In this document: positions 12,596 through 57,911 of the stretch, in pieces | Layout of the letters: each line of letters begins with the position of its first letter | How positions within the stretch are numbered: the stretch's first letter is position 1 | NCBI GenBank assembly: GCA_016285645.1 | Contig: JAEERC010000071.1 | Span: forward strand, 1 to 58,887 | DNA length: 58,887 nucleotides | From: Clostridiaceae bacterium | GTDB taxonomy: Bacteria > Bacillota > Clostridia > Oscillospirales > Acutalibacteraceae | Direction: 5' to 3' | Translations under genes and position numbers: made by a program | The notes under the pieces: model-generated | What the model was told of the DNA's origin: nothing | Databases searched by the model: none | Seen by the model: the letters and a program-made list of their open reading frames with translations, nothing else

Positions 12596-12715
12596 TTGTT
12601 TATATATTATTTATAATTATTTAAAATTTTGTATTTACTTTTAGGGATTGTTTGTGATATAGTGTAGAATGCATTAAATTGGGATTTTGTCACTTGAAGC
12701 GGGGAGGTGAGCGAA

Positions 12716-41057: not shown

Positions 41058-41085
41058 TTGACATTCCCCCTTATTATGATATAAT
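41058..41085 (+). promoter_or_regulatory. Consensus promoter of the plus-strand heptose/radical SAM operon
   Basis: TTGACA (41058-41063), 16-bp spacer, TATAAT (41080-41085), about 41 bp before the TTG start of the first gene. It is the only clear promoter before the shared terminator at 48.57 kb, so seven genes probably form one transcript. Confidence 0.75.
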
Positions 41086-41126
41086 CTTATAATGTATAAC
41101 TATGTATAAAAAGGGGAGTGTTTTCC

Positions 41127-42059
41127 TTGAACATTCTTGTAACCGGCGGAGCGGGATATATCGGCAGCGTGCTTGTGCCGGAACTGCTCTCTCTCGGCAA
41201 CAATGTTACCGTAATTGACAATTTCCTTTACAGACAGTCCTCGCTTATCGACTGCTGCAAATATAAAAATTTCACAATAATCAACGGCGACTCAAGGGAT
41301 GAGAAAACGCTTCTCAGAGGTATGGAAGGCGCGGATATCATTATTCCCCTCGCCGCCCTTGTCGGCTTTCCCGTCTGCGACAGGGACAAAACCGCCGCCG
41401 TAACCACAAACAGGGAAGCCGTCAAAAAGATTATTGAACTGCGCTCACCGGAGCAGAAAATAATTTTCCCCTGTACAAACAGCGGCTACGGCCTGGGGCA
41501 GGGTCAGCAGTTCTGCACGGAGGAATCCCCGATTAACCCCGTCTCGCTCTACGGCAAAACAAAAATGGAGGCGGAAAAAGCGGTGCTCGAGGCGGGCAAC
41601 AGCGTGTGCTTCAGGTTCGCAACTTTATTCGGCGCCTCCCCGCGTATGCGCACGGACCTGCTTGTAAACGACTTTGTTTACAGAGCCGTGTTTGACAGGG
41701 CGCTCGTTGTGTTTGAGGGGAACTTTATGCGCAATTATCTTCATGTCAGGGACGCCGCCCGCGCGTTTATCTTCGCTATAGACAACTTTGAAAAGATGAA
41801 GGGCAACACCTTCAACTGCGGGCTTGACGAGGCGAATATGTCAAAACTTGACCTCTGCCGCGAAATACAGAAGTTCATTCCTCAGTTTACATTTGTTGAG
41901 GCGCCTGTAGGAACAGACCCCGACAAGCGCAACTACATCGTTTCCAACGAAAAAATCAAATCCGCGGGGTTTAAAACGAAGTATTCGCTTGACGACGGCA
42001 TTGAGGAACTGATAAAAGTTTATTCGATTATAAAAAATTCATTTTACGGGAATGTGTGA
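41127..42059 (+). CDS. SDR similar to GDP-heptose C4-dehydrogenase (Cj1427-like)
   Basis: Extended short-chain dehydrogenase of 310 residues. NAD site VTGGAGYIG (5-13), catalytic YGKTK, and a set of motifs recalled from Campylobacter Cj1427, which oxidises C4 of GDP-D-glycero-D-manno-heptose: IIIPLAALVG, TNSGYGLGQG, CTEESPINPVSLYG, SPRMRTDLLVNDFVYRA, RNYLHVRDAARAF and DPDKRNYIVSNEKIKSAGF. The TTG at 41127 gives the usual start (NILVTGG) with AAGGGGAG eight bases upstream. HddA and HddC/GmhB genes in the same operon strengthen the heptose assignment. A plain hexose epimerase role is the alternative. Confidence 0.82.
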   Translation: MNILVTGGAGYIGSVLVPELLSLGNNVTVIDNFLYRQSSLIDCCKYKNFTIINGDSRDEKTLLRGMEGADIIIPLAALVGFPVCDRDKTAAVTTNREAVKKIIELRSPEQKIIFPCTNSGYGLGQGQQFCTEESPINPVSLYGKTKMEAEKAVLEAGNSVCFRFATLFGASPRMRTDLLVNDFVYRAVFDRALVVFEGNFMRNYLHVRDAARAFIFAIDNFEKMKGNTFNCGLDEANMSKLDLCREIQKFIPQFTFVEAPVGTDPDKRNYIVSNEKIKSAGFKTKYSLDDGIEELIKVYSIIKNSFYGNV

Positions 42060-42060
42060 T

Positions 42061-42429
42061 ATGCCTCTTATTGAAAAACTTACTCCCGATTTCGTCTTTG
42101 ACGACGAGCGCGGAACGCTTGCCCAGCTTGTGCATTCGGGCTATGAGCAGGTAAACGCCGTGTTTACAAAAAAAGGCGCCGTGCGCGGAAATATGCACTG
42201 CCACAAAAACAGCAACGAGGTGTTCTACATCATCTCGGGCAGCGTCGATGTGACCGCACGCCTTGATGAGGCGGAGGAGACCGCGCGTTTTGAAAGCGGG
42301 GACATGTTTCTTATAAGAAACAACATTATGCACACCTTCGTCTATAATGAGGACACTTATCTTGTGGCGCTCTATGACAGGCGCATTGAAAATGAGGACG
42401 GCACAAAGGATATAATCAGCGCGCAATAA
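42061..42429 (+). CDS. Cupin, possible NDP-sugar epimerase/ketoisomerase
   Basis: Single-domain cupin of 122 residues with metal-site pattern GNMHCHKNSNEVFYIISG and second motif FESGDMFLIRNNIMHTF. Its length and layout recall WxcM/FdtA-type sugar ketoisomerases or short cupin epimerases, which act on 4-keto NDP-sugars; this suits the neighbouring C4-dehydrogenase. ATG at 42061 is two bases after the previous stop with GGGAA upstream; ATG at 42052 would overlap and lacks spacing. The exact reaction is unknown. Confidence 0.68.
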   Translation: MPLIEKLTPDFVFDDERGTLAQLVHSGYEQVNAVFTKKGAVRGNMHCHKNSNEVFYIISGSVDVTARLDEAEETARFESGDMFLIRNNIMHTFVYNEDTYLVALYDRRIENEDGTKDIISAQ

Positions 42430-42449
42430 AAAGCAAATCGGTTGGGCTT

Positions 42450-44354
42450 ATGAAAAAGATTTATTTTGTTCAGGTCGGTTTCGAGTTCGACGGCTCGGTA
42501 TATCTGCCGTACGCGTCGGGAACCATGATCGCTTACTGCAAAAAGTTTTTGCGTTTCAAAAGTGAATATGAGTTTGCCGGCATCGTTTTCAGCCGTGAAA
42601 AGCTTGAGACCGCTCTCGGCAAAATAAAGGACCCTTATCTGGTCGCCTTCTCGTGCAGCGTGTGGAATATGGAGTATAACAAAACCCTCGCTACGCTCCT
42701 TAAAGAAAAATACCCCGGTGTAATCATCAATTTCGGTGGCCACAGCGTGGATGAAAAGGGCACTCTTCTTGACAGCGAGGAGTATATTGACCTTCTTATG
42801 TTCGGCGAAGGCGAGCGGGTTATGTGCTCGCTGCTCGACTGCCTCGCGCAGGGAGGCGATCTCTCCTCCGTAAGCAACATCGCCTTCAGAAAAGACGGAA
42901 AAACCGTCGCTACAAAGCGCGAATACTACAGTGACATTTCCGAGTATCCCTCTCCCTACACCACGGGAGTGTTCGATGAAATAATCGCCGCGAACGAGGG
43001 CACGGAGTTTCTCGGAGTGCTTGAAACAAACAGGGGCTGCCCCTACAACTGCGCCTACTGCGACTGGTGCGCCGGGCGCAAGGTGCGCCATTTTCCGATT
43101 GAAAAGGTTTACGCCGAAATCGAATGGCTTTCAAAAAACAAAATCGCCTACTGTTTCTGCGCCGACTCGAATTTTGGTATGTTCCCACGCGATGTGGATA
43201 TAGCCGAAAAACTCATTGAAACAAAAAAAGCGACGGGCTATCCGCAGGTTTTCAGACCCTGTTATGAAAAAAACAGCGCCGACCGCGTCTATCATATCTG
43301 CAGCGCTCTCAACAGCGTGGGTATGGACAAGGGCGCCACTTTCGCCTATCAGACACTCTCGCCCGAAGCGCTGAAAAATATAGGGCGTAAGAACCTGACG
43401 ATGGAGCACTTTTCATCGCTTTTGAAGAAATACAACGAAACGGGCATTCCGACTTATTCGGAACTCATTCTCGGGCTCCCGGGCGAGACGAAGGAGAGTT
43501 TCTGCAGAGGTATATGCCGCCTTATCGAGAGCGGCCAGCACAATTCCATAAGCGTCTATCACTGTGAGATGCTCCCGAATTCCGATATGGCGCATCCCGA
43601 TTATATTGAAAAGCACGGCATTGAGGTTATCAAGGTTAAATTCAACCACATTCACTCCGCGATAAAGCGCAACGAGGAGGTTCAGGAGTATTCCTACCTT
43701 GTGCGCTCAACCGCGACTCTGCCGCGGGAGGACTGGGTTTACTCAAACCTCTTCTCAATCTGCGTGCAGTGCTTCCACAGCTTGGGCGTGTTGCGGCTTT
43801 TTGCCATTTATCTTTACGGCACGGGCAGGGCGTCGTACTACGATTTCTACACATCTCTGCTTGAATATATACTGAACGGCAGCGGCAGATTGAACGCTCT
43901 GTGGAGCAATTTCAGAACAAAATATGAAAGCTCGCTCGAGGGCGACTGGAACTACTACAACGAAAAATTCGGCAATGTCACCTGGTTTTTCGAGGAGGGC
44001 GCGTTCATAGAAATAATCGACAACCTCGATTCCTTCTACAACGAGCTTATGCCGTTTTTAAAGCGGTATTTTGACGACGGCTTTATTGCCGACCTGCTCT
44101 CCTACCAGCGCTTTTTCTTGAGAAAGCCGGGCGAAGAGACCGTGCGCGCCCGCTTTGATTACAACTTCCGCGATTATTTCTCGTCCTTTATGAAGGGCGA
44201 CCGTATCCCTCTCGAAAAGCGGAGCGGTGAATATGAAATCAACTCCTCATTTGTCTGTGAGGATATAAAGGATTACGCCAAACGCGCCGTCTGGTTCGGC
44301 AGGCGCCGCGGAATGACCGTCTATCACGACGGCGAAATAAAAAAGACTGAATAA
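42450..44354 (+). CDS. Radical SAM protein, ~640-residue paralog family, copy 1
   Basis: Radical SAM protein of 634 residues, first of four paralogs in this locus. Residues 1-140 form a Rossmann-like domain of cobalamin-binding type (VAFSCSVWNMEYNK, INFGGHSVDEKG, LLMFGEGER); the base-off DxHxxG motif is not evident. The cluster site is ETNRGCPYNCAYCDWC (Cys197, Cys201, Cys204), followed by FCADSNFGMFPRD and LILGLPGETKESF. Residues ~415-634 form a separate region shared only with the paralogs (RKPGEETV, DYNFRDYF, YAKRAVWFGRRRG). Placed among GDP-heptose genes, it may modify the sugar or a lipid-linked form. The substrate is unknown. Confidence 0.85.
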   Translation: MKKIYFVQVGFEFDGSVYLPYASGTMIAYCKKFLRFKSEYEFAGIVFSREKLETALGKIKDPYLVAFSCSVWNMEYNKTLATLLKEKYPGVIINFGGHSVDEKGTLLDSEEYIDLLMFGEGERVMCSLLDCLAQGGDLSSVSNIAFRKDGKTVATKREYYSDISEYPSPYTTGVFDEIIAANEGTEFLGVLETNRGCPYNCAYCDWCAGRKVRHFPIEKVYAEIEWLSKNKIAYCFCADSNFGMFPRDVDIAEKLIETKKATGYPQVFRPCYEKNSADRVYHICSALNSVGMDKGATFAYQTLSPEALKNIGRKNLTMEHFSSLLKKYNETGIPTYSELILGLPGETKESFCRGICRLIESGQHNSISVYHCEMLPNSDMAHPDYIEKHGIEVIKVKFNHIHSAIKRNEEVQEYSYLVRSTATLPREDWVYSNLFSICVQCFHSLGVLRLFAIYLYGTGRASYYDFYTSLLEYILNGSGRLNALWSNFRTKYESSLEGDWNYYNEKFGNVTWFFEEGAFIEIIDNLDSFYNELMPFLKRYFDDGFIADLLSYQRFFLRKPGEETVRARFDYNFRDYFSSFMKGDRIPLEKRSGEYEINSSFVCEDIKDYAKRAVWFGRRRGMTVYHDGEIKKTE

Positions 44355-44363
44355 GGTGATTTT

Positions 44364-45233
44364 ATCTATCTCATTATCGGCTGCGGCTTTCTCGGCAGTT
44401 ACCTTGTAAACTGCTTAAAACAGAATACGGATGAAAGAATCATCGCAACATACAACACCTTAAAGCCCTGTGAAACAGACGGCGTTGAATATGTAAGGTG
44501 CGATGTCGCCGACCCGCGCGATTTAAAGGCGCTTCTCGCCCTGATACATAACGAAAAACCGACGGTCTTCTGGTTTGCCGCCTGCCACAACATCGATTAT
44601 GCTTTTAAAAATCCCGAAGCGGCAAGGCAAATAAACGTGTTCGCCCTGCAAAACTTTCTGAACGGGTCCGACAATATAGAAAAACTCTTTTTCTCCTCTA
44701 CGGACTGTGTTTACGGCGAGTGCGCACATGGTGAAAAGAAAAGCGAGACCTCGCCTCTCAACCCCGTAAACACCTACGGCGTTCAGAAAATCGAAGCGGA
44801 AAAAGAGATAATAAAAAACGGATTCACCGTCACGCGGCTTCCGTTTATGATAGGAAAATCCCTTTTGTCAAAGCCGCATTTTTACGACAGGATAAAAGAA
44901 AAACTGTCGCGGGGCGAAAGCGTTGAGATGATTGACGGGCTTTCGCGCTCCGTGCTCAGTTACAAAAAAACAGCGGAAATTCTCTGCGCTCTTTCACGGA
45001 AAGACGGCGTCCCGAAGGTCATCAATGTCTGCGGCGACGATTCATATACGAAGTATGAGATGGGTCTTAAACTCGCCGCTCATTTCGGGGCAGATTCCTC
45101 GCTTATTGAAAAAATCAGCGAGGAGGAGGGCAGGAAGTTCTTTGTTGACAGACGCGCCTCCTCCGGTGTTATGGATAACACCCTTCTCAAAAATATTCTC
45201 GAAGCGGAAGAAATCAAATGGGAGTGTGAATAA
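44364..45233 (+). CDS. SDR sugar reductase (RmlD-like) with apparent ATC start
   Basis: Full-length SDR of 289 residues. The Rossmann start reads (M)YLIIGCGFLGSYLV, then VFWFAACHNIDYAF, FFSSTDCVYGE and catalytic YGVQK. The reading frame is open from just after the radical SAM stop (TAA at 44352), but no ATG, GTG or TTG occurs in frame before the Gly-rich loop; the first lies at 44637, which would delete the NAD site. ATC at 44364 sits five bases after AAGGTG, exactly where a start is expected. Either a rare non-AUG start or a base error. A likely C4 or side-chain keto reductase finishing the heptose pathway. Confidence 0.75.
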   Translation: MYLIIGCGFLGSYLVNCLKQNTDERIIATYNTLKPCETDGVEYVRCDVADPRDLKALLALIHNEKPTVFWFAACHNIDYAFKNPEAARQINVFALQNFLNGSDNIEKLFFSSTDCVYGECAHGEKKSETSPLNPVNTYGVQKIEAEKEIIKNGFTVTRLPFMIGKSLLSKPHFYDRIKEKLSRGESVEMIDGLSRSVLSYKKTAEILCALSRKDGVPKVINVCGDDSYTKYEMGLKLAAHFGADSSLIEKISEEEGRKFFVDRRASSGVMDNTLLKNILEAEEIKWECE

Positions 45234-46211
45234 ATGCTTATAACAAGAACTCCTTTCAGAATATCGTTTTTCGGCGGCGGCACCGATTTCAAAGAGTATT
45301 ACGACGAATTCGGCGGCAGCGTGCTCTCAACGAGCATTGACAAATACTGCTACACAACCATCCGTTCCCTGCCCCCGATTTTCAGTTACAAGAGCCAGCT
45401 TTCATACTCGAAAATCGAGCGCTTCAGCGAGGTTGATGAGATAAACCACCCTCTTGTGAGAAACGCGCTCAAATTCATTCCCGCCGACCGCGTACAGATA
45501 AACTACGACGCCGACCTTCCCGCGAGCTCGGGCATCGGCTCAAGCTCGTCCTTCGCCGTCGGTCTTTTACAGGCGCTTCACGCCATTCACAACGAATATC
45601 CCGATAAAATGACTCTCGCAAAAGAGGCGATTCACCTTGAAAGGGATCTCTGCGGCGAAGCGGGCGGAGCGCAGGACCAGGTCATTGCCGCTTACGGCGG
45701 CATAAACCGCATTAATTTCTATGAGGACAAAATCGAGGTAAATCCCATAATCACATCCGAAAGGCGCCTTCGAGCCCTGCGTGAAAACCTTATGCTCGTG
45801 TTTACGGGCTTCACGCATTTCTCGGGCGAGGTTTCCGAGGAACAGAAAAGCAGAATAAAGGACAATCTCCCACGGCTCCACGAGATGAAGGAGATGGTGG
45901 GCATTGCCGAAAGAATTCTTATGGACGGCGATTTTGACGATTTCGGCAGACTTCTCAACCACACCTGGGAACTCAAAAAAACCCTCTCAAAAATAATAAC
46001 CAACGACGAAATAGAATGTATTTACCGTAAGGCGCTTGAAAACGGCGCCGTCGGCGGCAAACTTCTCGGCGCGGGCAGCGGCGGCTTTATGCTGCTCTAT
46101 GTGCCAAAGGAGAATCAGCCGGGAATAAAAGCGGCACTGCCGTCGCTCAGATTTGTGCCTTTTGATTTTGAAAAAAGCGGCACGCAGATAATGTATGAGC
46201 ACAACGATTAA
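45234..46211 (+). CDS. hddA: D-glycero-alpha-D-manno-heptose-7-phosphate kinase
   Basis: GHMP kinase of 325 residues phosphorylating C1 of D-glycero-D-manno-heptose 7-phosphate. N-terminal ITRTPFRISFFGGGTDFKEY and ATP loop PASSGIGSSSSFAVG (96-110) are the family's signatures; GEAGGAQDQVIAAYGG and the terminal GAVGGKLLGAGSGGFMLLY complete it. These match HddA rather than galactokinase or mevalonate kinases. It directly abuts the preceding SDR stop, with GGGAG upstream, and precedes the HddC-GmhB fusion, the enzyme catalysing the next two steps. Confidence 0.9.
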   Translation: MLITRTPFRISFFGGGTDFKEYYDEFGGSVLSTSIDKYCYTTIRSLPPIFSYKSQLSYSKIERFSEVDEINHPLVRNALKFIPADRVQINYDADLPASSGIGSSSSFAVGLLQALHAIHNEYPDKMTLAKEAIHLERDLCGEAGGAQDQVIAAYGGINRINFYEDKIEVNPIITSERRLRALRENLMLVFTGFTHFSGEVSEEQKSRIKDNLPRLHEMKEMVGIAERILMDGDFDDFGRLLNHTWELKKTLSKIITNDEIECIYRKALENGAVGGKLLGAGSGGFMLLYVPKENQPGIKAALPSLRFVPFDFEKSGTQIMYEHND

Positions 46212-46228
46212 GAACACCGGAGCGTAGT

Positions 46229-47482
46229 ATGAAAGCAGTTATTCTCGCAGGAGGGCTCGGCTCAAGAATGGGCAACGCCTTTCCCGGTCTGCCCAAGCCG
46301 ATGGTTCCGCTTTGCGGCAAGCCGGTTCTTGAACGCCAGATTGAAGCCCTGCGTAAAAACGGAATAGACGACTTTACGATTGTCACCTGCCTTCACCACG
46401 AGGTGATTGAGCGGTATTTCGGCTGTGGCGAAAAGTCAGGCGTGAACATAGATTTTTTTGTCGAATCCACGCCGCTCGGCACCGCGGGCGCTCTTTTCAA
46501 AATACGCCCCGAAAGCGATTTTCTGTTCTTGAACGGCGACCTGCTTTTTGATTTTGACCTTCAAAGGATGCGGGAATTCCATAAAAGCACCAACGCGCTG
46601 ATAACTCTTTTCACCCACCCGAACAACCACCCTGCCGACAGTTCGGTAGTTTTCGCGGACGGCAGCGGAAAAGTGACCGCTTTTTATGACAAAACCCGTA
46701 AACCTGAGAATTACCCGAATCTCTGCAACGCGGGGATTCAGATTGTTTCACCCGAAATATTCGATTATCTCAGTTTTGAATCCGCCGCGGATTTTGACGG
46801 CGATGTTGTCACCCCGCTTGTGAAAAGCGGAAGAATTTACTCCTACAAAAGCGCCGAATATGTTTTTGATATCGGTACGCCCTCACGCCTCGAAAAGGCG
46901 GAAAGCGACCTTGAAAACGGCATGGTAAAAAGCATTTTCAAAGAGAAGCGGAAAGCCGTTTTCCTCGACCGCGACGGCACAATTAATGTTCACCGTGATT
47001 ACATAACCGACCCCTCGCAGATGGAACTTCTCGACGGCGCCGCTCAGGCGATAAACAGATTTCACGAGCTCGGCTATCTTGTTATTGTAATTACAAATCA
47101 GCCCGTTGTCGCAAAAGGTATGTGCACTTTCGAAACCCTTAATCAGATTCACAACCGCCTTGAGATGCTGCTCGGCGAACAGGGCGCTTACCTTGACGGC
47201 ATCTATTTCTGCCCCCACCACCCGAAACGCGGGTTTGAGGGCGAGGTGAAGGAACTGAAAATCGAGTGCGACTGCCGCAAGCCCAAACCGGGTCTGATAC
47301 TTAAAGCCGCCCGCGATTTCAATATTGACCTCTCCGCTTCGTTTATGGCGGGCGACTCCGAGCGCGATGTGCTCGCGGGCATTAACGCGGGGTGCGAAAG
47401 CGTGTTCATAAACGAAAACGGCGAAACGGTTCAAAACGCGCCCGTGTACAAAAACATTTTTGAATTTTCACAGATATTATAA
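46229..47482 (+). CDS. Fused heptose-1-phosphate nucleotidyltransferase / heptose-bisphosphate phosphatase (HddC-GmhB)
   Basis: Bifunctional 417-residue protein. Residues 1-235: sugar nucleotidyltransferase with LAGGLGSRMGN, PKPMVPLCGKPVLE, FLNGDLLFDFD and CNAGIQ, like HddC. Residues 242-417: HAD-IIIA phosphatase like GmhB with Asp247 and Asp249 (FLDRDGTIN), ITNQPVVAKG, Zn ligands in CPHHP and CDCRKPKPG, and AGDSERDVLAG. It would dephosphorylate heptose 1,7-bisphosphate and then activate heptose 1-phosphate, most likely with GTP. With hddA upstream, only the isomerase GmhA is missing from the pathway in this window. Confidence 0.88.
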   Translation: MKAVILAGGLGSRMGNAFPGLPKPMVPLCGKPVLERQIEALRKNGIDDFTIVTCLHHEVIERYFGCGEKSGVNIDFFVESTPLGTAGALFKIRPESDFLFLNGDLLFDFDLQRMREFHKSTNALITLFTHPNNHPADSSVVFADGSGKVTAFYDKTRKPENYPNLCNAGIQIVSPEIFDYLSFESAADFDGDVVTPLVKSGRIYSYKSAEYVFDIGTPSRLEKAESDLENGMVKSIFKEKRKAVFLDRDGTINVHRDYITDPSQMELLDGAAQAINRFHELGYLVIVITNQPVVAKGMCTFETLNQIHNRLEMLLGEQGAYLDGIYFCPHHPKRGFEGEVKELKIECDCRKPKPGLILKAARDFNIDLSASFMAGDSERDVLAGINAGCESVFINENGETVQNAPVYKNIFEFSQIL

Positions 47483-47497
47483 TTTCCGGAGAATGAT

Positions 47498-48559
47498 ATG
47501 ACGGCTCTTATGTCAAAGGCAAAAGAGTATATTAAAGAGCAAAAGCTGTTCCTGCTTTTCTGGCTGCTTGTTTCAATAAAGGTCTATTTTGAAACGAGCG
47601 GCAGCGTAGCGCCCTTTTTCTCGGGTAAATTCTTTTGCTTTCTGTTCTTTGCCTTTGGCTTTGCGCTGCTTCTTTACACGGCACACATTTCATTCGGTGA
47701 GGAAAACAATAAAGCCGCGTTTTATTTCAGCGGAATTTCACTGTTTATATATTACTGCTGTTTTAATCAGACTCTCGCCTATTCAATGCAGAACGAAAAC
47801 TATATTTCGGCGGCTTTTCTTTTTATCGCGTTGGCTTTTGCGCCCGAACGCAAAGCATGCTTTTTCACGGTTCCCGCCTGCCTTATCGCTCTTTTTGTAA
47901 GCCCCGAAACATCAGCGCTCATTCTCCCGGCGGTTATCGGCGTTATATGTTTCGGCATTGAAAAACGAAAAAAAGATGAAAAACCAAACGGCAACAAAAG
48001 CGTTAAGAAAATCAAGAAGAATAAAAACAAATATAAAAAGAAAAAAGAGCAGTTAAATATTCTTGAAAGTATTATTTCAACGGTTTCAAAAATCCCGCCC
48101 GCAGTCAGCGCCGTTATTCTTGCGGTGTTGTTCGCGCTTTCGTTCGTTATTTACCGCGCGCGCAATCCGTACGATATTATGTTAAATGCGCAGACAGCTG
48201 CTCAGACGGGTACGGAGTTTATAAAAATCTTTGTTTTCTTTATGCCGTTTTATTTTCTTTCCCTGCTTTTGTGGATTTGTTTTATCAGGCAGAACCGCGG
48301 ATATATAAAAGAACTGCTTATCTGCGCCGCCGCATCCCTTGCCTGCCTTTCAATTCAGTTTGTTTTTCCGATGTCGCATATTACCGCGACGGGTTACATT
48401 TCCCTGCCTTTGATAATATCCCTTTCGGCTCACACTTTTATATTGAAGCATAAAAAAGAAACCGCCGGCGAAGTCTCGCGGGCAGTTAAAAAGTTTTCCT
48501 TCGCAGCAGCTGTGATTCTTATAATCACCGTCGGTGCCGGGCTTAAATATTTACGTTAA
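47498..48559 (+). CDS. Polytopic membrane protein with lysine-rich loop
   Basis: Integral membrane protein of 353 residues with roughly nine hydrophobic segments. A strongly basic cytoplasmic loop (about 155-185, with KKIKKNKNKYKKKKEQ) splits it into halves. No glycosyltransferase, flippase or polymerase motif is recognised, although its position at the end of a nucleotide-sugar operon suggests glycan export or assembly. It is richer in A+T than the genes before it. It is the last gene before a shared terminator. Confidence 0.7.
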   Translation: MTALMSKAKEYIKEQKLFLLFWLLVSIKVYFETSGSVAPFFSGKFFCFLFFAFGFALLLYTAHISFGEENNKAAFYFSGISLFIYYCCFNQTLAYSMQNENYISAAFLFIALAFAPERKACFFTVPACLIALFVSPETSALILPAVIGVICFGIEKRKKDEKPNGNKSVKKIKKNKNKYKKKKEQLNILESIISTVSKIPPAVSAVILAVLFALSFVIYRARNPYDIMLNAQTAAQTGTEFIKIFVFFMPFYFLSLLLWICFIRQNRGYIKELLICAAASLACLSIQFVFPMSHITATGYISLPLIISLSAHTFILKHKKETAGEVSRAVKKFSFAAAVILIITVGAGLKYLR

Positions 48560-48562
48560 AAA

Positions 48563-48592
48563 ACTCTCTGTAGATTTTACAGAGAGTCTTTT
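48563..48592. terminator. Shared terminator of the two convergent operons
   Basis: ACTCTCTGTA (48563-48572), loop GATTT, TACAGAGAGT (48578-48587), with A-rich and T-rich flanks that serve both strands. Confidence 0.85.
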
Positions 48593-49767: not shown

Positions 49768-49779
49768 TTTTACTCCGCT

Positions 49780-51258
49780 TTATTTAAACTTGACTCCGTA
49801 TTCTCTTGCTGTCTTTCTGAAAAAATGCGAGTAATAAAAGACGGTACAGAACTGCCTTATTGAAACCATGCTGCCAAACACAAAGCCTTTGAGGCCGTGC
49901 CTGAAAATACGGTTGAATGTATCGCTTGCCATTTTCTTGATAATTCCGAAACTGTCGCCGTTTACGGAATCTCTTCGTGAAAACGCTTTCCACTGATAGC
50001 AAAAATGCAATACTTTAAGGTCCCGTGACTTAACCGCGGAAAGATTGACCGGTATGTTTTCACCGCCGTTGCCTTCTATTTCTTCGGCAATTCTTTTGAA
50101 GGTCCGCGGGAATTTATATACACTTGACGCCTCTGCCTCAGCGAGTATTTCGGTGTTTGGCAGAGGTATAAGAATATTGATTAAGGTGAGGCTGGCGTTT
50201 ATCTTTTCGGCAAACTCCACCGTTCTTCTGACTTCCTCCTTTGTTTCACCGGGGAAGCCGATAATAAATGAGGCCTGCACGGTTATTCCCGCGTTCTCAC
50301 ACCACCTGACGGTCTCTTCCGCTATGTCAATATCAATACTTTTTTTGATGCTTTTTATTCTTTCTTTTGTGGCACTTTCAATGCCGAAAAGAATCCATCT
50401 GCAGCCCGCTTTGTACATAAGCTTCACATCGTCCTCGTTGAGCACGCCCAGACGCATCTGGCAGCCCCAGACAATACCTGTGTTTTCTTCAATCAGACGG
50501 TTGCAAAGCTGAGTGCGCAGTTCCCTGTTCGGGCACCACAGTTCGTCGGAAAAATACACTCCGTCCATTCCGTAGTTTTTTGTAAGGTATAAAATGTCAC
50601 GCATAACCTGTTCAGGTGCGCGGCATCTGTTTTTGCCCTGGTGAAAATGTCTGTTGGAGCAGAAAGTGCAGTTTGCGGGGCAGCCCTTTGAGGCATAGAG
50701 ATAAAGCATTTTACTGCAATTAAAGAACGTGGAAAAATAGGTTTCGGGATTAATCAAAGTCCAGTCTATGTCGGGGAATTCTTTTAAATCCGCAACGGGC
50801 CTTACGGGGGTTTTAACAAGTTTTCCGTCTCTTTTATAAATCAGCCCGTTTACAAGAGAAATGTCGCCGCCGTTTTCAAGCGTGTCGGCAAATTCCTTCC
50901 AGGTTATTTCACCCTCGCCGTCAATTATATAATCGGGGTTTGCCTTTTCCATAACAAGGTCGGGCAGGGCGCTTGCCGCCTGACCGCCCCACACAACAGG
51001 GCAGTTAAAGCGAGCGTGTAACTCATCGGTTACCTTTTTTGCATCCATACTGCTTGAAAAAGACATTGCGGAAATACCGATAATATCAGGCTTGAAGTTT
51101 TTGACGGCTTGCGTGAGACTGCCTTTTTCGCTTCTCTCAAAAATAATCGCTTCATGCCCGTTTGCGTTGAGATATGATGCTATTGACAAAAGCCCAAGCG
51201 GCACCGACGGCATTCTTTGATAAACGGGAAACTTCGGGTTGATAAGCAGAATTCTCAT
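49780..51258 (-). CDS. B12-binding-type radical SAM protein (BchE-like class)
   Basis: Radical SAM protein of 492 residues, distinct from the four paralogs. Residues 1-130 are a cobalamin-binding-like Rossmann domain (RILLINPKFP, IGISAMSFSSS, VVWGGQAAS, IIDGEGE). The cluster site is KGCPANCTFC (Cys193, Cys197, Cys200), then YFSDELW, FGIESATKERIKSIKKS and IIGFPGETKEEV. The ~110-residue C-terminal part is basic and aromatic, as in enzymes acting on membrane or lipid substrates. Probably a methyltransferase or cyclase of class B type; substrate unknown. Its ribosome site GGAGGTA lies in the end of the preceding gene. Confidence 0.83.
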   Translation of the reverse strand: MRILLINPKFPVYQRMPSVPLGLLSIASYLNANGHEAIIFERSEKGSLTQAVKNFKPDIIGISAMSFSSSMDAKKVTDELHARFNCPVVWGGQAASALPDLVMEKANPDYIIDGEGEITWKEFADTLENGGDISLVNGLIYKRDGKLVKTPVRPVADLKEFPDIDWTLINPETYFSTFFNCSKMLYLYASKGCPANCTFCSNRHFHQGKNRCRAPEQVMRDILYLTKNYGMDGVYFSDELWCPNRELRTQLCNRLIEENTGIVWGCQMRLGVLNEDDVKLMYKAGCRWILFGIESATKERIKSIKKSIDIDIAEETVRWCENAGITVQASFIIGFPGETKEEVRRTVEFAEKINASLTLINILIPLPNTEILAEAEASSVYKFPRTFKRIAEEIEGNGGENIPVNLSAVKSRDLKVLHFCYQWKAFSRRDSVNGDSFGIIKKMASDTFNRIFRHGLKGFVFGSMVSIRQFCTVFYYSHFFRKTAREYGVKFK

Positions 51259-51259
51259 A

Positions 51260-53203
51260 TCATACCTCCGTGTTCCGTTTTACTTCCGGCGAATAGCAAC
51301 TGCTTGAAAGCAGACTTCTCGCGTAGTTTCTGCCGTACCATACTATTTCCTTTGAATACTCGAAAAGATCTTTGACATCCCATTTGTCATGGGCGGTGAG
51401 TTTCGTTTTAACCTTTTCAAGCGGCTTGTACTCGTCAATATAAATATTCTGGAAATAGTCGTAAAAATCATAGTCCGAAACTATTTCCTTCTCTCCGCTC
51501 TCCGAGGGCTTTTTGACAATGTCATACTGGTACCTGAGCAGTGCGGCTTTTATTTCACCGTCAAGATTGAAGCTGTTTAAGAAGCGGCCGATTTCCTCAT
51601 AGAAGCCGTCAATTTCAAGTATGCATTTAAGGAAATACACTTCCTCAAAACGCCAGGATATTTTGCCGAACGGCTCGCACGGCACCACCCAGGGATTGCT
51701 GTTGTCGGTAACTCCGCGGGAGTAGTCTCTTATCAGATTGAAAATGCCGCTGCACACTCGGTTGTTTTCATCCTGTGAAAAGCGCACGAAGGCGTCATAA
51801 AAATCCTTGTACGAAATACCCGTTTCGTTTACTGTGTAAACCGCGACGCACCTGAGGAGTCCCATGTTGTGAAGCGCCTGAATCATTGTGGAATAGACTA
51901 TGCAGTAAACCCAGTCGTCAACGCTCAAGGTATCCGTCTCGATTATAAAGCGCGAGTATTCCTTTATTTCGTGGCTCTCGGCGCTGTTGTCGACGTGAAC
52001 CGCGTCGAACGGCGTTTTTATTGATTTTATGCCGAATTTTTCAATGTATTCGGGTGAGCCCATCTGCGAATTGGGAAGAAGCTCACAGGGGTAAACAAAT
52101 ATGGAGTCGTGCTGACCGCATTCAATAAGACTGCAAAGTCCCTCAACAAAACTCTCCCTGGTCTCGCCGGGCAGGCCGAGAATCAGTTCGGAAAAAGTAG
52201 CGACCTTGTCCTTGTTGTAAAGGCGCATAAGTTTTTTGAAGTTTTCAACGGGAATATTTTTCCTGTTTATATTGTCAAGCACCGGCTGCGACATGCTCTG
52301 GAAAGAGAGAGTTTGCGCCTTGTCAAGCCCGTAGATATTGAACTTTCTGCCTATCATCTTTACAAAGTCCGTGCGGTTTTTGGTAAAGCAGACTCTGAAA
52401 ACCTTCGGGTAGCCCGTAGTGACCTTCAGGTTTATTATATAATCGGCTATTTCGTTGTCGCGGTCAAACAGACCGAAGTTCGCGTCACAGCAGAAAATAT
52501 ACTCAATCTTATGCTCACTTATCCAGTCAAACTCCGCCTTTACTCTCTCAATCGGGAAAAGGCGAACCCTCATATTAAGCGAGCCCCAGTCGCAATAGGC
52601 GCAGTTGTTCGGGCAGCCGCGGTTTGTTTCAACAAGAGCCGAAAAATTGTAGTTCTCTTTAAGAATATCGTCAAACACGCCCGTAAGATACGGCGAGGGG
52701 AAATCCTTTAAGCAGTGGCGGCTGAAAGCGGTCTGAACATACTCGCCGTCCCGCTTGAAGGATATATTGTCAATGTCGTCAAGCGCCCTGCCATCGAGCA
52801 GGTGAAGAAGCAGTTCCCTGAAGGATTCCTCACCCTCGCGGTAGCAGAGAATGTCTATCGCCGGGCACTCGTCAAAAGCCGTGAAATCGGGCGCTACATT
52901 GTGACCGCCGAAGCAGATTACCGTTTCGGGGTATTTCTTTTTTATCTGAGCGGCGAGCGCCTTGTTGTATTCGTAGTTCCACACATAGCACGAAAAACCG
53001 ACAAAGAACGGGTCTTCGAGCGAATCGACGGCATCGGCTATGTTCTCCCTTGTGAATATGATTCTTTTGAGGTCGTAGTTCCGGCGTATGGTTTCGTCAT
53101 CCCAGGCGTAGGCGGCAAGGCAGCCCGCGGCATAGGGAAGATAGACGCTCTTGACGCCTTCGCCGTAGGTATTGCTCGCCTGCACGAGATAGACATTTTT
53201 CAT
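51260..53203 (-). CDS. Radical SAM protein, ~640-residue paralog family, copy 2
   Basis: Paralog of the gene at 42450, 647 residues. The N-terminal Rossmann part has VGFSCYVWNYEYNKAL and ICFGGHNVAPDF. Cluster site ETNRGCPNNCAYCDWG (Cys197, Cys201, Cys204), FCCDANFGLFDRD, ELILGLPGETRESF, and the shared C-terminal region with KKPSESGEK, YDFYDYF, LEK and EIVWYGRNYA. ATG at 53203 aligns with the other copies (MKNVYLVQ) and has AAAGGAG nine bases upstream; the longer reading does not. It lies between copy 3 and the 492-residue radical SAM gene. Function unknown. Confidence 0.85.
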   Translation of the reverse strand: MKNVYLVQASNTYGEGVKSVYLPYAAGCLAAYAWDDETIRRNYDLKRIIFTRENIADAVDSLEDPFFVGFSCYVWNYEYNKALAAQIKKKYPETVICFGGHNVAPDFTAFDECPAIDILCYREGEESFRELLLHLLDGRALDDIDNISFKRDGEYVQTAFSRHCLKDFPSPYLTGVFDDILKENYNFSALVETNRGCPNNCAYCDWGSLNMRVRLFPIERVKAEFDWISEHKIEYIFCCDANFGLFDRDNEIADYIINLKVTTGYPKVFRVCFTKNRTDFVKMIGRKFNIYGLDKAQTLSFQSMSQPVLDNINRKNIPVENFKKLMRLYNKDKVATFSELILGLPGETRESFVEGLCSLIECGQHDSIFVYPCELLPNSQMGSPEYIEKFGIKSIKTPFDAVHVDNSAESHEIKEYSRFIIETDTLSVDDWVYCIVYSTMIQALHNMGLLRCVAVYTVNETGISYKDFYDAFVRFSQDENNRVCSGIFNLIRDYSRGVTDNSNPWVVPCEPFGKISWRFEEVYFLKCILEIDGFYEEIGRFLNSFNLDGEIKAALLRYQYDIVKKPSESGEKEIVSDYDFYDYFQNIYIDEYKPLEKVKTKLTAHDKWDVKDLFEYSKEIVWYGRNYARSLLSSSCYSPEVKRNTEV

Positions 53204-53228
53204 TTCCCGGCACTCCTTTCTCAAAAAA

Positions 53229-55148
53229 TCAGTATTCTATGGTAACATCGCGTTTGGCCCTGACGATAATTGTGTCGCCCCTGCGCTTTGCGTAGAGCAT
53301 AACCTTTACCGCGTAATCCTTCCAGTCATAAACGGGTTCGGGTATTGTGACCGTAATTTTGTTGTGTTTCTTTTCAAGCGGGCTGTAACTGAAGGATAAA
53401 ATATGCCTGAAATATTCATAGAAATCGTAAGCGAATTCCTCCGCCACGGTTTCCTGACCGGGCTTGCGTATTACGAATTTCTGGTATTTCACAAGTTCCC
53501 CGTATATTTCCGGCTCCAGATTGAACCTGTCAAGGAAGGGCATTATCTCCTCCCAGAATCTGTCAAAGCCGTAAACAAGCTCAAGGAAAAGTCCCTCCTC
53601 GGTAAACCAGCCGAGTTCGCCGAATTTTTTATCCGTATAGGTCCATTCGCCCGTTTCGCAGTCGCTGAGAATATCCTTTATTTTCATCATCATTTCATAA
53701 AGCAGCGTGCCTTTTGCGCTTATGGAATACTCGAGCAGCGACATATAAAAATCAAGGTAGGAAATATTTTTTTCGTGTCTGAGATAAAGCGCGAAAAATT
53801 CCAGCAGACCGATGTGGTGAAACGCCTGAAGAATTGTGGAGAACATCAGCGATTTGACCATCATTTCACGCGGCATGCTCGCAGTTTCAATCACGAGCTG
53901 AACATATTCGGTTATTTCCTTCGCCTTCGGCTCGGAGGCGTGAAGGTGGTTCATCGGCACCGTTGTAGTTTTTATGCCGAACTTTTCGCGGTATTCCTTA
54001 CTGCCCAGGCGCGAGTTGCAGTAGACCTGGCAGCTGTAAACCGTAAGGGCGCTGTGCTGCCCCGCCTCCATGAGATCGCAAAGCCCCTTGCAGAAGCTTT
54101 CAAATGTCTCGCCCGGCAGACCGAGAATCATTTCGGTATATGTGGGAATGCCCGCCGAGTTGTATCTTTTGGCTATATCCGCGAACGCTTCAAGGGTGAA
54201 GTTCTCGCGGTGAACGTTTTTGAGCGTTTCGGGATTCAAAGACTGGTAGGCGAGCGAAGCCGCCTTGTTTATCTTGTGGTCGTAGAAAAGTTTGTTTATT
54301 TCAAAAACCGTGTCGTTGCTGTTTTTTGCGTAGCAGGCGCCGAATATGTGCGGGTAGCCCGTTCTCTGCCTTATTTCGGTAACTATCTTCGCTATTTCAA
54401 GGTCCCTTTTGAAAATGCCGAAGTTTGAGTCGGCGCAGAATATGTATTCCACCCTGTGCGCCGCCATCCATTCAACCTCGTCCCTGATTTTTTCAATCGG
54501 GAATTTTTTTATTTTCGGGCTGAAGCACCAGTCGCAGTAGGAGCACTGATAGGGGCAGCCTCTGTTTGTTTCGCATATTCCGCAGAATACCGTGTCGGGC
54601 TCTTTTTTTATTATTTCGTCAAATGTGCCCGAGAGATAGGGGGAGGGGTAGTCGTCAACACTCTCATAGTATTTGTAAGCGTTCTTTACGCTTCTGCCGT
54701 CTTCATTGCGCCACGAAATGTTTTCAACATCCGCCATATTCCCCTTGCCGGCGTAAGCGCACAGAACCCCGTAAAACGGCTCCTCGCCCTCGCCGTGGAT
54801 GAGAATATCCACAAAATCGTTGTTGTCCAGAAGGTCGTTGTTGTCGGGAACATTGTGACCGCCGTAAAGGATTACGCAGTCGGGGTAGCGCTCCTTGATA
54901 AGCTTTGAGAGCACCTTATTGTATTCCTGAGTCCAGTTCGAGCAGGAAAAAGCGACAAGGAACGGGTCAATTATTTGTTCTATGACCTTGCAGGGCTCCT
55001 CACGCCTGTAAACAAAGCCCGCAAGGCGGTAGTTTTCCTTTATAAAATCGTGCCTGAAAGCGTAGGCGGCAAGGCAGCCCGTAGCGTAGGGGAGGTAAAC
55101 GGACGCGCCGTAGTTGAGACCTGCCTGAATGAAATATATGTTTTTCAT
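53229..55148 (-). CDS. Radical SAM protein, ~640-residue paralog family, copy 3
   Basis: Paralog of 639 residues. MKNIYFIQAG start, VAFSCSNWTQEYNKVL, LYGGHNVPDNN, cluster site CETNRGCPYQCSYCDWC (Cys198, Cys202, Cys205), FCADSNFGIFKRD, EMILGLPGETFESF. The C-terminal region carries RKPGQETVAEEF, YDFYEYF, LEKK and VMLYAKRRGD. Cys after CDW is shared with copy 1, whereas copies 2 and 4 have Gly, splitting the set into two pairs. GGCGGTG precedes the ATG; the gene follows copy 4 by about 20 bp. Confidence 0.85.
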   Translation of the reverse strand: MKNIYFIQAGLNYGASVYLPYATGCLAAYAFRHDFIKENYRLAGFVYRREEPCKVIEQIIDPFLVAFSCSNWTQEYNKVLSKLIKERYPDCVILYGGHNVPDNNDLLDNNDFVDILIHGEGEEPFYGVLCAYAGKGNMADVENISWRNEDGRSVKNAYKYYESVDDYPSPYLSGTFDEIIKKEPDTVFCGICETNRGCPYQCSYCDWCFSPKIKKFPIEKIRDEVEWMAAHRVEYIFCADSNFGIFKRDLEIAKIVTEIRQRTGYPHIFGACYAKNSNDTVFEINKLFYDHKINKAASLAYQSLNPETLKNVHRENFTLEAFADIAKRYNSAGIPTYTEMILGLPGETFESFCKGLCDLMEAGQHSALTVYSCQVYCNSRLGSKEYREKFGIKTTTVPMNHLHASEPKAKEITEYVQLVIETASMPREMMVKSLMFSTILQAFHHIGLLEFFALYLRHEKNISYLDFYMSLLEYSISAKGTLLYEMMMKIKDILSDCETGEWTYTDKKFGELGWFTEEGLFLELVYGFDRFWEEIMPFLDRFNLEPEIYGELVKYQKFVIRKPGQETVAEEFAYDFYEYFRHILSFSYSPLEKKHNKITVTIPEPVYDWKDYAVKVMLYAKRRGDTIIVRAKRDVTIEY

Positions 55149-55168
55149 GTCCGTTCACCGCCTTTCTT

Positions 55169-57082
55169 TTAAACTGTGCGGACATCCTTGTCGTAAATGT
55201 TTCTGCTGTCCTTCCTGCCGTACCACACAACAAAACGCGCGTAGTCGGCAATGCTGTCGTAGGTTTTCGCTCCGCTGATTTTATAATGAGTTTTTCTCTT
55301 TTCAAGAACGGGCTTTTCATTTAAGAACGCCGTCGAGAAATATTTTAGAAAATCGTAATCGCATTCAAGTTCGTTTTCGCTTTTGTCGCCGGGTTTCTTG
55401 AGCATAATAATTTGAAATTCCAGCAGATTTTCGAGTATATCCTTCTCAATCCCGAGCGTTTCGAGGTATCCCTTCGCCTCTTTGTAAAACCCGCGGAAGT
55501 TGTCAATAATATTGAGAAACGCGAACTCGTCAAAAGACCAGAGCACATCGCCGAAGCGGTCATCGTGAGCGGTAAGCTCGCCGTTGCCGTCAATAATCTT
55601 TCGATAGCGGCTTTCTATGTCGGCAATAACCGAGTGAACAAAGCCCTCTTTCCGCGAGCGGAAATACTCAATCAGATTTTCAAAAAACACCCTGTATTTT
55701 ATCCCGAGTTCAAAATATGAATAGAGCGCGAAAAACTCCAGCATTCCGAGGTGGTGAAAGCACTGCACAAAATCGGAAAAGATATTTGTCTTTATCCAGT
55801 CCTCCTCGTTCATTGAGAAAGTGGAGGTTACAATCCGTGAATACTCGGGAATTGAGTCCGCGTGAAGAAAACTCATATGCGGCTGATTGAGCGGAATAAT
55901 ATTCGCCTTTATATCATATTTCTTTATGAATTCCGGGTCGCCGAGGTCTGAGCCGGGCAGAAGTTCGCAGTTGTGAATATAAATCGAGTGGTGCTGACCC
56001 GCCTCAAGCAGTTCGTCAATGCCGCCCGCGAAGCTGTCATATGTCTCGCCGGGCAGACCGAGTATAAGCTCCGTGTAGGTCGGAATATGCGCCTCGTTGT
56101 ACTTGTTCATAAGTTCCTTGAAAAAGTCAACGGTTATGTTGGTTCTGCCTATGATTTTAAGCGCGTCCGGCGACATGGACTGAAAAGCGAGGGTGACTCC
56201 CTTGTTCATCCCGTTTTCCGAAAGTTTCAGCCCGATTTCAAAAATACGCTGGCTGTTGTTTTTCGCGAAGGACGCCTGGAATTTTTTCGGGTAGCCCGTC
56301 TCGTTTTTAAGTTCAATCAGTTTGTCTATATAGTAAGAATCCCTTTCAAACAACCCGAAATTTGAGTCGGCGCAGCCGCAGAACTCAAGTTTGTGGTCCG
56401 CCATCCAGCGAAATTCCGCGAGAGTTCTCTCCTCGCTGAACTGCCTCATCTTGCCCTTGAGCGTTCCCCAGTCGCAGAACGCGCAGTGGTAGGGGCAGCC
56501 GCGGTTGCTCTCGTAGAGGAACACAAACTCAATGTCGGGATATTCACGGAAAAGCGGCTCGAATGTGCCCTCAAGATAAGGTGAGGGGTAGTCGCAGTAA
56601 TTATAGTATTCTCTTTTCGCGATAATCAGCTCACCGTTTTTGCGGTAGGCGATGTTCGGAATATCCTCAATTCTGTCAAGCGAGATATATGAGCGCAGAA
56701 GGCGCAGGAACGGCTCCTCGCCCTCGCCCTGAATGACTATGTCAATAAAGTCGTAATCGGTAAGCGTAGAGTTGTCGGGGGCAATCTGATGCCCGCCGAA
56801 AACAATCACGCAGTCGGGGTAGGCTTTTTTAATCGCCTTCGCCATCGTGATATTGTAGGTGAAGTTCCAGATATATGCCGAGAACGCCGCGATGAATGGG
56901 TTCTCCATTTCCGCCACGGTTTTGTCAATGTCGTCTCTTAAAAAATGAAGTTTTTTAAGGCAGTAGTTTTCCTTTATTTCCGGCTCGTGCCAGGCGTAAG
57001 CCGCCAGCGTGCCGATGGCATAGGGAATGTGCGCCTGATTGCCGTAGATGTAATTCGGCTGGAACATATATACATTTTTCAA
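55169..57082 (-). CDS. Radical SAM protein, ~640-residue paralog family, copy 4
   Basis: Paralog of 637 residues. TTG at 57082 gives MKNVYMFQPN, aligning with the other copies, and GGGAGGTG lies six bases upstream; the GTG at 57091 is part of that ribosome site. Rossmann part with AAFSAYIWNFTYN and VFGGHQIAPDN; cluster site ESNRGCPYHCAFCDWG (Cys196, Cys200, Cys203); GCADSNFGLFERD; ELILGLPGETYDSF. C-terminal region KKPGDKSENE, YDFLKYF, LEKRK and FVVWYGRKDS. It follows the GT2 gene and is probably translated from the same message. Confidence 0.85.
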   Translation of the reverse strand: MKNVYMFQPNYIYGNQAHIPYAIGTLAAYAWHEPEIKENYCLKKLHFLRDDIDKTVAEMENPFIAAFSAYIWNFTYNITMAKAIKKAYPDCVIVFGGHQIAPDNSTLTDYDFIDIVIQGEGEEPFLRLLRSYISLDRIEDIPNIAYRKNGELIIAKREYYNYCDYPSPYLEGTFEPLFREYPDIEFVFLYESNRGCPYHCAFCDWGTLKGKMRQFSEERTLAEFRWMADHKLEFCGCADSNFGLFERDSYYIDKLIELKNETGYPKKFQASFAKNNSQRIFEIGLKLSENGMNKGVTLAFQSMSPDALKIIGRTNITVDFFKELMNKYNEAHIPTYTELILGLPGETYDSFAGGIDELLEAGQHHSIYIHNCELLPGSDLGDPEFIKKYDIKANIIPLNQPHMSFLHADSIPEYSRIVTSTFSMNEEDWIKTNIFSDFVQCFHHLGMLEFFALYSYFELGIKYRVFFENLIEYFRSRKEGFVHSVIADIESRYRKIIDGNGELTAHDDRFGDVLWSFDEFAFLNIIDNFRGFYKEAKGYLETLGIEKDILENLLEFQIIMLKKPGDKSENELECDYDFLKYFSTAFLNEKPVLEKRKTHYKISGAKTYDSIADYARFVVWYGRKDSRNIYDKDVRTV

Positions 57083-57102
57083 ATCAGGCACCTCCCTTTT
57101 GA

Positions 57103-57858
57103 TTATTTTAAAAGTTTGTTTTTACCGGTGAACCGCACCCTGAACACAACCGGCAGATATGACGCCCTGAGCGAAAATGAATTGCGCGAGGTCACGTTTT
57201 TATCCGCTCTCCACACGGCGGGCACTTCTATAAATCTGTAGCCGAGCCGTTTTAACTTGAGTGTGTTTTCGAGCACAACGGGAAAATCTTCCTCTTCCCA
57301 GGTTATTTTTTTCATGCTCTCGGTTGGGAAAATTCTGAACGAATAGGTGTAGTCGTGCACATCCGCGCCGTAGAGAACCCTCAGCATCTGCTGAAAGGCG
57401 AAGTTGCAGAATTTGTTGAACCTGCCGTAGCCCTCAAAGCCGCCGCCCTCAATCCACCTTGAGGCGATAACCACCGCGTCGGGGTTCTGTTTTGATGCTT
57501 CAATCATTCTCGCGAGCGCTTCGGGGGAGGTGTCGGGATCCCCCGTGAAATGGGCTGTGTGCGTGCCCTTCGCTATGTTGAGCGATTCGTATAGCGCGCC
57601 TTTGATTTTCGGCGCCTTCTGAGTATATTTCACAAACTTGACCTGCGGGAATTCATCAATGAGCGAGTCGATTATTTCAATACAGCGCTCCGTGGTCTTT
57701 TCCCACAGAACAAATATAATCTCCTCAATATCGCCGCTCCCGCACAGCGAAACAGCCTGCTCCACGTTGCTTTTAAGCGAGGCTTCCTCGTCCGTTACGG
57801 GAATAACTATTGAAACGCTGTACAAAAACTCACCCGCTTTTAAGTCATATTTACCCAT
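57103..57858 (-). CDS. GT2 family glycosyltransferase (DPM1-like)
   Basis: Family 2 glycosyltransferase of 251 residues with a GT-A fold: VSIVIPVTDEEASL start, IIFVLWEKTT, the donor Asp pair in HFTGDPDTSPEAL, and an acceptor region VIASRWIEGGG. There are no C-terminal membrane helices, as in short dolichol/polyprenyl-phosphate mannose synthase-like enzymes. It could transfer a sugar, perhaps the modified heptose, to a polyprenyl or lipid acceptor. First gene of the minus-strand operon; the ATG at 57858 has only a weak ribosome site. Confidence 0.78.
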   Translation of the reverse strand: MGKYDLKAGEFLYSVSIVIPVTDEEASLKSNVEQAVSLCGSGDIEEIIFVLWEKTTERCIEIIDSLIDEFPQVKFVKYTQKAPKIKGALYESLNIAKGTHTAHFTGDPDTSPEALARMIEASKQNPDAVVIASRWIEGGGFEGYGRFNKFCNFAFQQMLRVLYGADVHDYTYSFRIFPTESMKKITWEEEDFPVVLENTLKLKRLGYRFIEVPAVWRADKNVTSRNSFSLRASYLPVVFRVRFTGKNKLLK

Positions 57859-57882
57859 ACTAATCCATAATAATACTATTAT

Positions 57883-57911
57883 ATTATATTAATAAAAGGG
57901 ACAAATGTCAA
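57883..57911 (-). promoter_or_regulatory. Consensus promoter of the minus-strand radical SAM operon
   Basis: Minus strand TTGACA (57906-57911), 17-bp spacer, TATAAT (57883-57888): both boxes perfect. Downstream genes to 48592 have gaps of 1-36 bp and no internal terminator. Confidence 0.8.

Follow-up and report, generated by a model that had tools for sequence, protein, structure and literature searches.

Described relatives and the locus

Enzymes of the TokK/CysS type, which are B12-dependent radical S-adenosylmethionine (SAM) proteins, methylate unactivated carbons and, to our knowledge, have so far been studied one at a time, in antibiotic pathways; the cobalamin radical SAM methylases MoeK5, GenK and GenD1 have sugars as their substrates. 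Here we analyze a 58,887-nucleotide contig of a Clostridiaceae bacterium of the family Acutalibacteraceae (JAEERC010000071.1 in assembly GCA_016285645.1; the whole stretch is hereafter the window), in which four long radical SAM paralogs of this type, RS-A to RS-D, are encoded in two convergent operons together with a GDP-heptose pathway and genes for glycosyl transfer. This locus is a real and recurrent combination of known parts, namely arrays of the B12 radical SAM C-methyltransferase type, a pathway to GDP-heptose (or of the GDP-fucose type) and transfer of the polyprenyl-phosphate/GT-C type. We lean towards the reading that the enzymes of both operons together make a C-methylated sugar derived from GDP-heptose and transfer it to the cell surface.

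The nearest described enzymes are the C-methyltransferases TokK (carbapenem) and CysS (cystobactamid), with which the paralogs share the predicted fold over nearly the whole chain, the CxxxCxxC motif and the tryptophan of the lower face (excerpts of PMC12846815); in contrast to these, the present paralogs are 27-29% identical to TokK, are arrayed two to six per locus (in 55 of 70 loci) and adjoin sugar-nucleotide and glycosyltransferase genes. The GDP-heptose pathway of the Campylobacter jejuni capsule offers a parallel in its kinase, phosphatase and guanylyltransferase domains, Cj1427-like dehydrogenase, cupin and reductase-like short-chain dehydrogenase/reductase (SDR), the counterparts of which lie here in one operon (excerpts of PMC10680097), whereas our locus is without GmhA, has HddC and GmhB fused, includes a gene for a B12 radical SAM protein among those of the operon and belongs to Clostridia-type gut bacteria. 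Pairs of a dolichol monophosphate mannose (DPM) synthase and a GT-C protein are likewise echoed by a GT2 glycosyltransferase resembling such a synthase and a predicted GT-C membrane protein, MP1, yet the donor here would be GDP-heptose-derived, possibly C-methylated, and MP1 is without a soluble domain. By description, rather than by sequence, the paralogs can also be likened to MoeK5, GenK and GenD1, cobalamin radical SAM methylases of antibiotic clusters (excerpts of PMC8992657), and, again by description only, to CjjRM3420_1449 of C. jejuni HS:19, a single radical SAM metalloprotein gene in a methylation/capsule-biosynthesis cluster (excerpts of PMC8743553). Within the portions of the open-licence PMC literature covered, no description of this B12 radical SAM/heptose system was found.

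Enzymes and organization of the two operons

As the original prediction had it, four radical SAM paralogs of about 640 residues are present, one on the plus strand (RS-A, 42450..44354, 634 aa, recognized by motifs and predicted fold) and three in tandem on the minus strand (RS-B, 55169..57091, 640 aa; RS-C, 53229..55148, 639 aa; RS-D, 51260..53224, 654 aa; recognized by NCBIfam, alignment and tree), followed by a fifth, shorter one (49780..51258, minus strand, 492 aa). The other three are about 39, 44-45 and 42-43% identical to RS-A, and a search of the bacterium's own genome listed no full-length copy beyond the four. The CxxxCxxC iron-sulphur motif after the B12 domain is invariant in all four, and its cysteine columns are conserved in 208 of 208 long open reading frames (ORFs) of a wider set, 17 of which have an extra residue (CxxxxCxxC). 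W72 of RS-A, also invariant in the four, aligns with W76 of TokK and is a tryptophan in 190 of the 208; a tryptophan at the lower axial face of the cobalt is a TokK-type feature (excerpts of PMC12846815). In the predicted fold the B12, radical SAM and C-terminal domains take up the TokK arrangement across the whole chain, and in structure comparison RS-A matches TokK/CysS best. We consider the assignment of the paralogs to the TokK/CysS-type B12 radical SAM C-methyltransferase class to be well supported; because their predicted fold and motifs are those of TokK and CysS, the radical modifications that they perform are most likely C-methylations, with RS-A as the predicted C-methyltransferase of the sugar-nucleotide arm.

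The shorter radical SAM protein is BchE/HpnJ-like in its Pfam, NCBIfam and PDB matches, and also matches AprD4, a diol dehydratase with a solved structure that contains paromamine. The 17 ORFs with CxxxxCxxC had been missed by a regular expression and were considered as cysteine-less pseudo-enzymes, a notion rejected once alignment revealed their motif; they look like another subfamily of long B12 radical SAM proteins (KGCYWGKCTFC-like; in L074, L075, L076, L081, L086 and other loci), which adjoins GT2 in several loci and of which one Pfam-scanned member has an N-terminal extension. Apart from these 17, the set of 208, in which a few overlong fused frames are also counted, comprises 191 CxxxCxxC-type sequences, near-duplicates included.

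The plus operon runs in the order SDR1, cupin, RS-A, SDR2, HddA-like kinase, HddC-GmhB fusion, MP2. SDR1 (41118..42059), which carries a Pfam Epimerase domain, has as its closest solved relative over its full length (residues 3-312, E 2.8e-105; next match E 1e-17) PDB 6vo6, annotated in the search output as a putative epimerase/dehydratase only, which we take to be Cj1427; on that identification SDR1 is a GDP-heptose 4-dehydrogenase-like protein of the Cj1427 type. The FdtA-like cupin (42052..42429) matches Pfam Cupin_2 at 34.7 bits and FdtA at 23.5 bits (cut-off 23), other family matches being weak, and is a probable 4-keto-sugar epimerase or isomerase, while homology makes SDR2 (44355..45233) a probable RmlD-like 4-keto reductase. 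The SDR2 frame is open from 44355; because its relatives are full length (mostly 286-294 aa) and there is no ATG, GTG or TTG upstream of 44637, its start codon is probably none of these three and likely ATT or ATC. In C. jejuni, GDP-heptose is acted upon in turn by the Cj1427 dehydrogenase, a C3/C5-epimerase and a C4-reductase (excerpts of PMC10680097), a scheme that SDR1, the cupin and SDR2 would, by analogy, match. Next come the HddA-like D-glycero-D-manno-heptose 7-phosphate kinase (45234..46211; PDB 4usm, E 2.5e-45, and 4n3o, E 3.7e-44) and an HddC-like guanylyltransferase fused to a GmhB-like phosphatase (46229..47482; Pfam and NCBIfam homology). MP2 (47498..48559, 353 aa, about six predicted transmembrane segments) matches no Pfam family and, at E 1e-5, has no homologue among the 70 loci.

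In the minus operon, RS-B, RS-C, RS-D and the short radical SAM gene stand between GT2 and MP1. GT2 (57103..57858) is polyprenyl-phosphate sugar synthase-like: it matches the DPM synthase PDB 5mlz (E 7.4e-6), whereas it falls short of the equivalog level in NCBIfam, where its best match, AglJ, reaches 28 of 325 bits and the dolichyl-phosphate hexose transferase model is also far below cut-off. MP1 (48592..49767, 391 aa) is a predicted GT-C-fold glycosyltransferase on the strength of a fold test, Foldseek by itself giving no placement; candidates, by alignment column, for the acidic residue expected in the first extracytoplasmic loop of GT-C enzymes are D46, found in 31 of 44 sequences, and an aspartate at the S48 column, found in 11, with an aspartate somewhere in an 11-column stretch in 43.

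The organization agrees with the prediction of two near-consensus promoters facing each other, each operon closing with a polytopic membrane protein (MP2 and MP1). Both promoters are sigma-70-type sites with 12 of 12 consensus positions, TTGACA-16-TATAAT at 41058..41085 (plus, with TG ahead of the -10) and TTGACA-17-TATAAT at 57883..57911 (minus), against a chance expectation from base composition of about 0.01 in 18,888 bases. Their hexamers are conserved amid drifted flanks in L036 (plus operon) and L071 (minus operon), two loci from one related metagenome-assembled genome. Between the first and last start codons (41118 to 57858) 16,609 of 16,741 bases are coding, in 13 genes. The further prediction of one shared terminator holds in part: a hairpin at 48563..48587 (11-pair stem with one G-T, A-rich before and T-rich after) lies between the operons but passes the terminator scan on the plus strand only, so that its use by both is plausible.

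Elsewhere in the window, 58001-58648 encodes a lipoprotein-like protein with no Pfam match, the gene for which adjoins radical SAM and GT2 genes in L071 and L101 as well; 62-685, at the contig start, appears by eye from its translation to encode a resolvase/invertase-like serine recombinase; and 12707-14026 encodes a PDZ/radical SAM/DUF512 protein, DUF512 having been reported as a cobalamin-binding domain (excerpts of PMC11659888). Another locus of the same genome (L109) has a cobalamin riboswitch (40.3 bits) near genes that by eye are surface-protein-like and ECF-type ABC transporter-like, and is a possible B12 uptake operon.

Recurrence and exchange of the sugar module

We compared 70 loci, taken from the best 80 of 193 confirmed matches in a scan of genome contigs, with genes called as longest ORFs and many loci truncated by contig ends. 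They lie on contigs titled Clostridia, Oscillospiraceae, Ruminococcaceae and similar, with a ruminant host named in 40 of 70 titles. At least two long paralogs (two to six long radical SAM ORFs each) occur in the above-mentioned 55 loci. The original prediction had expected homologs in the company of heptose or glycan genes and the two operons in the same genomes, and both are seen: at least one kinase, nucleotidyltransferase, SDR, cupin, GT2 or GT-C-type membrane gene is found, within the stretch available, in 59 of the 70 loci, and all 16 genomes with RS-A list other full-length paralogs and a Cj1427-like gene. Across 36 same-genus genomes, an RS-A orthologue (assigned by identity rather than by tree, at 53-65% versus 37-46% for other long paralogs) and SDR1 occur in the same 16 and are both missing from 20; HddA is present in 14 of these 16, and MP1 in 15 of the 19 genomes with long paralogs and in none of the 17 without. 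A profile match at E 1e-60 was found in two of 394 genomes of an order-level sample (the bacterium's own and one of another genus of the same family) and in one of 398 of a phylum-level sample (its own), both samples being drawn evenly, with hardly any members of the genus itself and at most the three best candidates scored per genome; the system looks narrow in distribution.

The sugar module itself varies. An HddA-type kinase is found in 23 of the 70 loci as well as in the window, and in 13 of 70 (some cut by contig ends) it is replaced by an FKP-type protein of about 820 aa, of the fucokinase/GDP-fucose-pyrophosphorylase type, the fucose-pyrophosphorylase and GHMP-kinase domains of which were identified by Pfam on three and NCBIfam on two members, the others being assigned by clustering and length. 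An initial single kinase cluster of 37 genes (36 loci and the window) proved to mix the two types and was split by length and BLAST. In G013, G030 and G032, which have long paralogs and no RS-A orthologue, a long GHMP-kinase frame adjoins the paralogs. Since HddA gives way to an FKP-type protein in those 13 loci, a sugar other than a heptose may be used in some cases. In G004 and G007, furthermore, the heptose operon with RS-A is located away from other paralog arrays, which makes the two operons look like parts of a single genome-wide system that can be separated from each other.

A phylogenetic tree of 183 of the 191 CxxxCxxC-type sequences (those below 720 aa; a single FastTree run, midpoint-rooted and cut at one depth) has at most one member per locus in 23 of the 25 groups with at least two members, and under this rooting places the 38 sequences of the RS-A clade as monophyletic (support 0.982). 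The paralogs thus look old and non-redundant on their sequences. Of 14 testable clades, none combines HddA-type with FKP-type loci, whereas shuffling gave a mean of 13.0 mixed clades; the count was two of 14 before a contig-edge fragment, L093, was relabelled FKP after BLAST. Most simply, each step or position would have its own enzyme, suited to the sugar; linkage and descent could give the same pattern.

Beyond these loci, a TokK-like relative on an Azospirillum plasmid lies amid GDP-mannose dehydratase, epimerase and glycosyltransferase genes, and others are found on Streptomyces plasmids. Among the best 80 of 108 matches in environmental viral sequences we recovered 79 loci (L122-L200) with 104 radical SAM ORFs at 26-36% identity, several in tandem pairs, with an SDR in seven loci, a DegT aminotransferase in 12 and a class-III aminotransferase in 10 (neighbor clusters typed from one Pfam-scanned representative each); a collection of phage records yielded none at 1e-20. 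Taken together, these relatives suggest that the use of the TokK-like family on glycans extends beyond these gut bacteria.

A proposed route and its rivals

The original prediction, that the paralogs modify the heptose, its glycan or its lipid carrier and that GT2 transfers it, gains support from the recurrence described above, and we would refine it to C-methylation of a sugar that is not always a heptose. Enzyme classes, gene order and co-occurrence come from sequence or predicted structure; methylation, substrate, order of steps and product are what we infer. In the proposed route, SDR1 would oxidize C4, the cupin would epimerize and SDR2 would reduce, while RS-A would C-methylate the sugar nucleotide or an intermediate via methylcobalamin and a 5'-deoxyadenosyl radical, like TokK and CysS. 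GT2 would then place the sugar on polyprenyl phosphate, RS-B, RS-C and RS-D would methylate other carbons of the sugar, its lipid-linked form or a co-transferred sugar, and after flipping MP1 would pass the sugar to an extracytoplasmic acceptor.

Several observations weigh against this route. The predicted HddA, HddC, GmhB and Cj1427-like enzymes are represented by homologous domains in one operon, but the first three carry their names by homology only, because they miss the curated NCBIfam equivalog cut-offs (171 of 600, 93 of 300 and 161.5 of 178 bits, respectively). A GmhA-like gene lies outside the locus, elsewhere in the genome, with 128 bits under a cut-off of 209, and genomes that lack the system have genes of this kind too (44 of 60 genomes match). 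RS-A, RS-B, RS-C and RS-D reach 242, 250, 237 and 273 bits with NF033712 (KedN5; cut-off 700), and the Pfam B12-binding match of RS-A, at 29.5 bits, is just under its cut-off of 32.1. TokK and CysS were characterized on natural-product substrates, which carry pantetheine in the solved structures according to their titles, and a TokK-like relative on a Sinorhizobium plasmid adjoins adenylation-domain genes. Within the stretch available, 11 of the 70 loci have none of the glycan gene clusters, and in G006 and G014 (assemblies 81 and 76% complete) the cluster is without HddA and the GmhB half, with no HddA elsewhere. Five genomes of the same genus that have no long paralogs (G001, G005, G015, G016 and G026) contain long open frames weakly matching HddA and possibly of the FKP type, so that the FKP-type module extends beyond the system. 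Finally, the co-occurrence (Fisher) and shuffle values ignore descent, and neither co-occurrence nor clade-module agreement can be taken as independent of linkage and shared descent.

Were the paralogs instead to methylate the polyprenyl carrier or a membrane lipid, with the heptose as a mere head group, this would suit the polyprenyl carrier implied by GT2 and the GT-C-type proteins, the persistence of the arrays when the sugar module changes and the weak NCBIfam matches to the B12 radical SAM lipid enzymes HpnJ, HpnR and rSAM_ladder_B12; yet RS-A tracks the heptose dehydrogenase and the clades follow the sugar kinase type, neither of which a common lipid substrate would require, and with TokK/CysS as the best structural match of RS-A we judge this alternative improbable. 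We hold it to be just as improbable that, instead of a structural glycan of the surface, the product is a diffusible natural product, a glycolipid or sugar resembling moenomycin or the aminoglycosides. Antibiotics are what the closest solved relatives produce, and the biosynthesis of moenomycin and gentamicin involves MoeK5, GenK and GenD1 (excerpts of PMC8992657); against this, Pfam and NCBIfam detect no polyketide synthase, nonribosomal peptide synthetase or recognized exporter family in the 13 genes (the unmatched MP2 could be an exporter), the dense coding leaves scant room for a carrier protein, the presence of GT-C- and DPM-like genes speaks for the extracytoplasmic surface, and the system is present in 16 to 19 of the 36 same-genus genomes. 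Slightly less probable still is that the TokK fold was kept for another radical reaction on the sugar (AprD4-like dehydration, OxsB-like ring contraction or epimerization), notwithstanding the AprD4 match of the short protein, the divergence of the paralogs to about 40% identity and the possibility of other reactions on one fold.

Returning to the C-methylated surface sugar, we tentatively entertain an extension of it as an exchangeable system: B12 radical SAM methyltransferases, arrayed and acting iteratively, with one dedicated enzyme for each carbon position, would assemble higher-carbon sugars bearing several C-alkyl groups (methyl to isopropyl-like) from backbones of the GDP-heptose or GDP-fucose type, so that each gut species would have its own hydrophobic, branched surface sugar. 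More broadly, the locus suggests a surface sugar with extra carbon branches in gut bacteria, many of them from ruminants. Here, enzymes of the TokK/CysS type occur in arrays linked to genes for nucleotide sugars and glycosyltransferases, and the bacteria that carry them are uncultured members of the gut community. If sugars are methylated, the 191 CxxxCxxC-type sequences would be a collection at hand for the C-alkylation of sugars, and the variation in the kinase module would allow substrate specificity to be tested directly.
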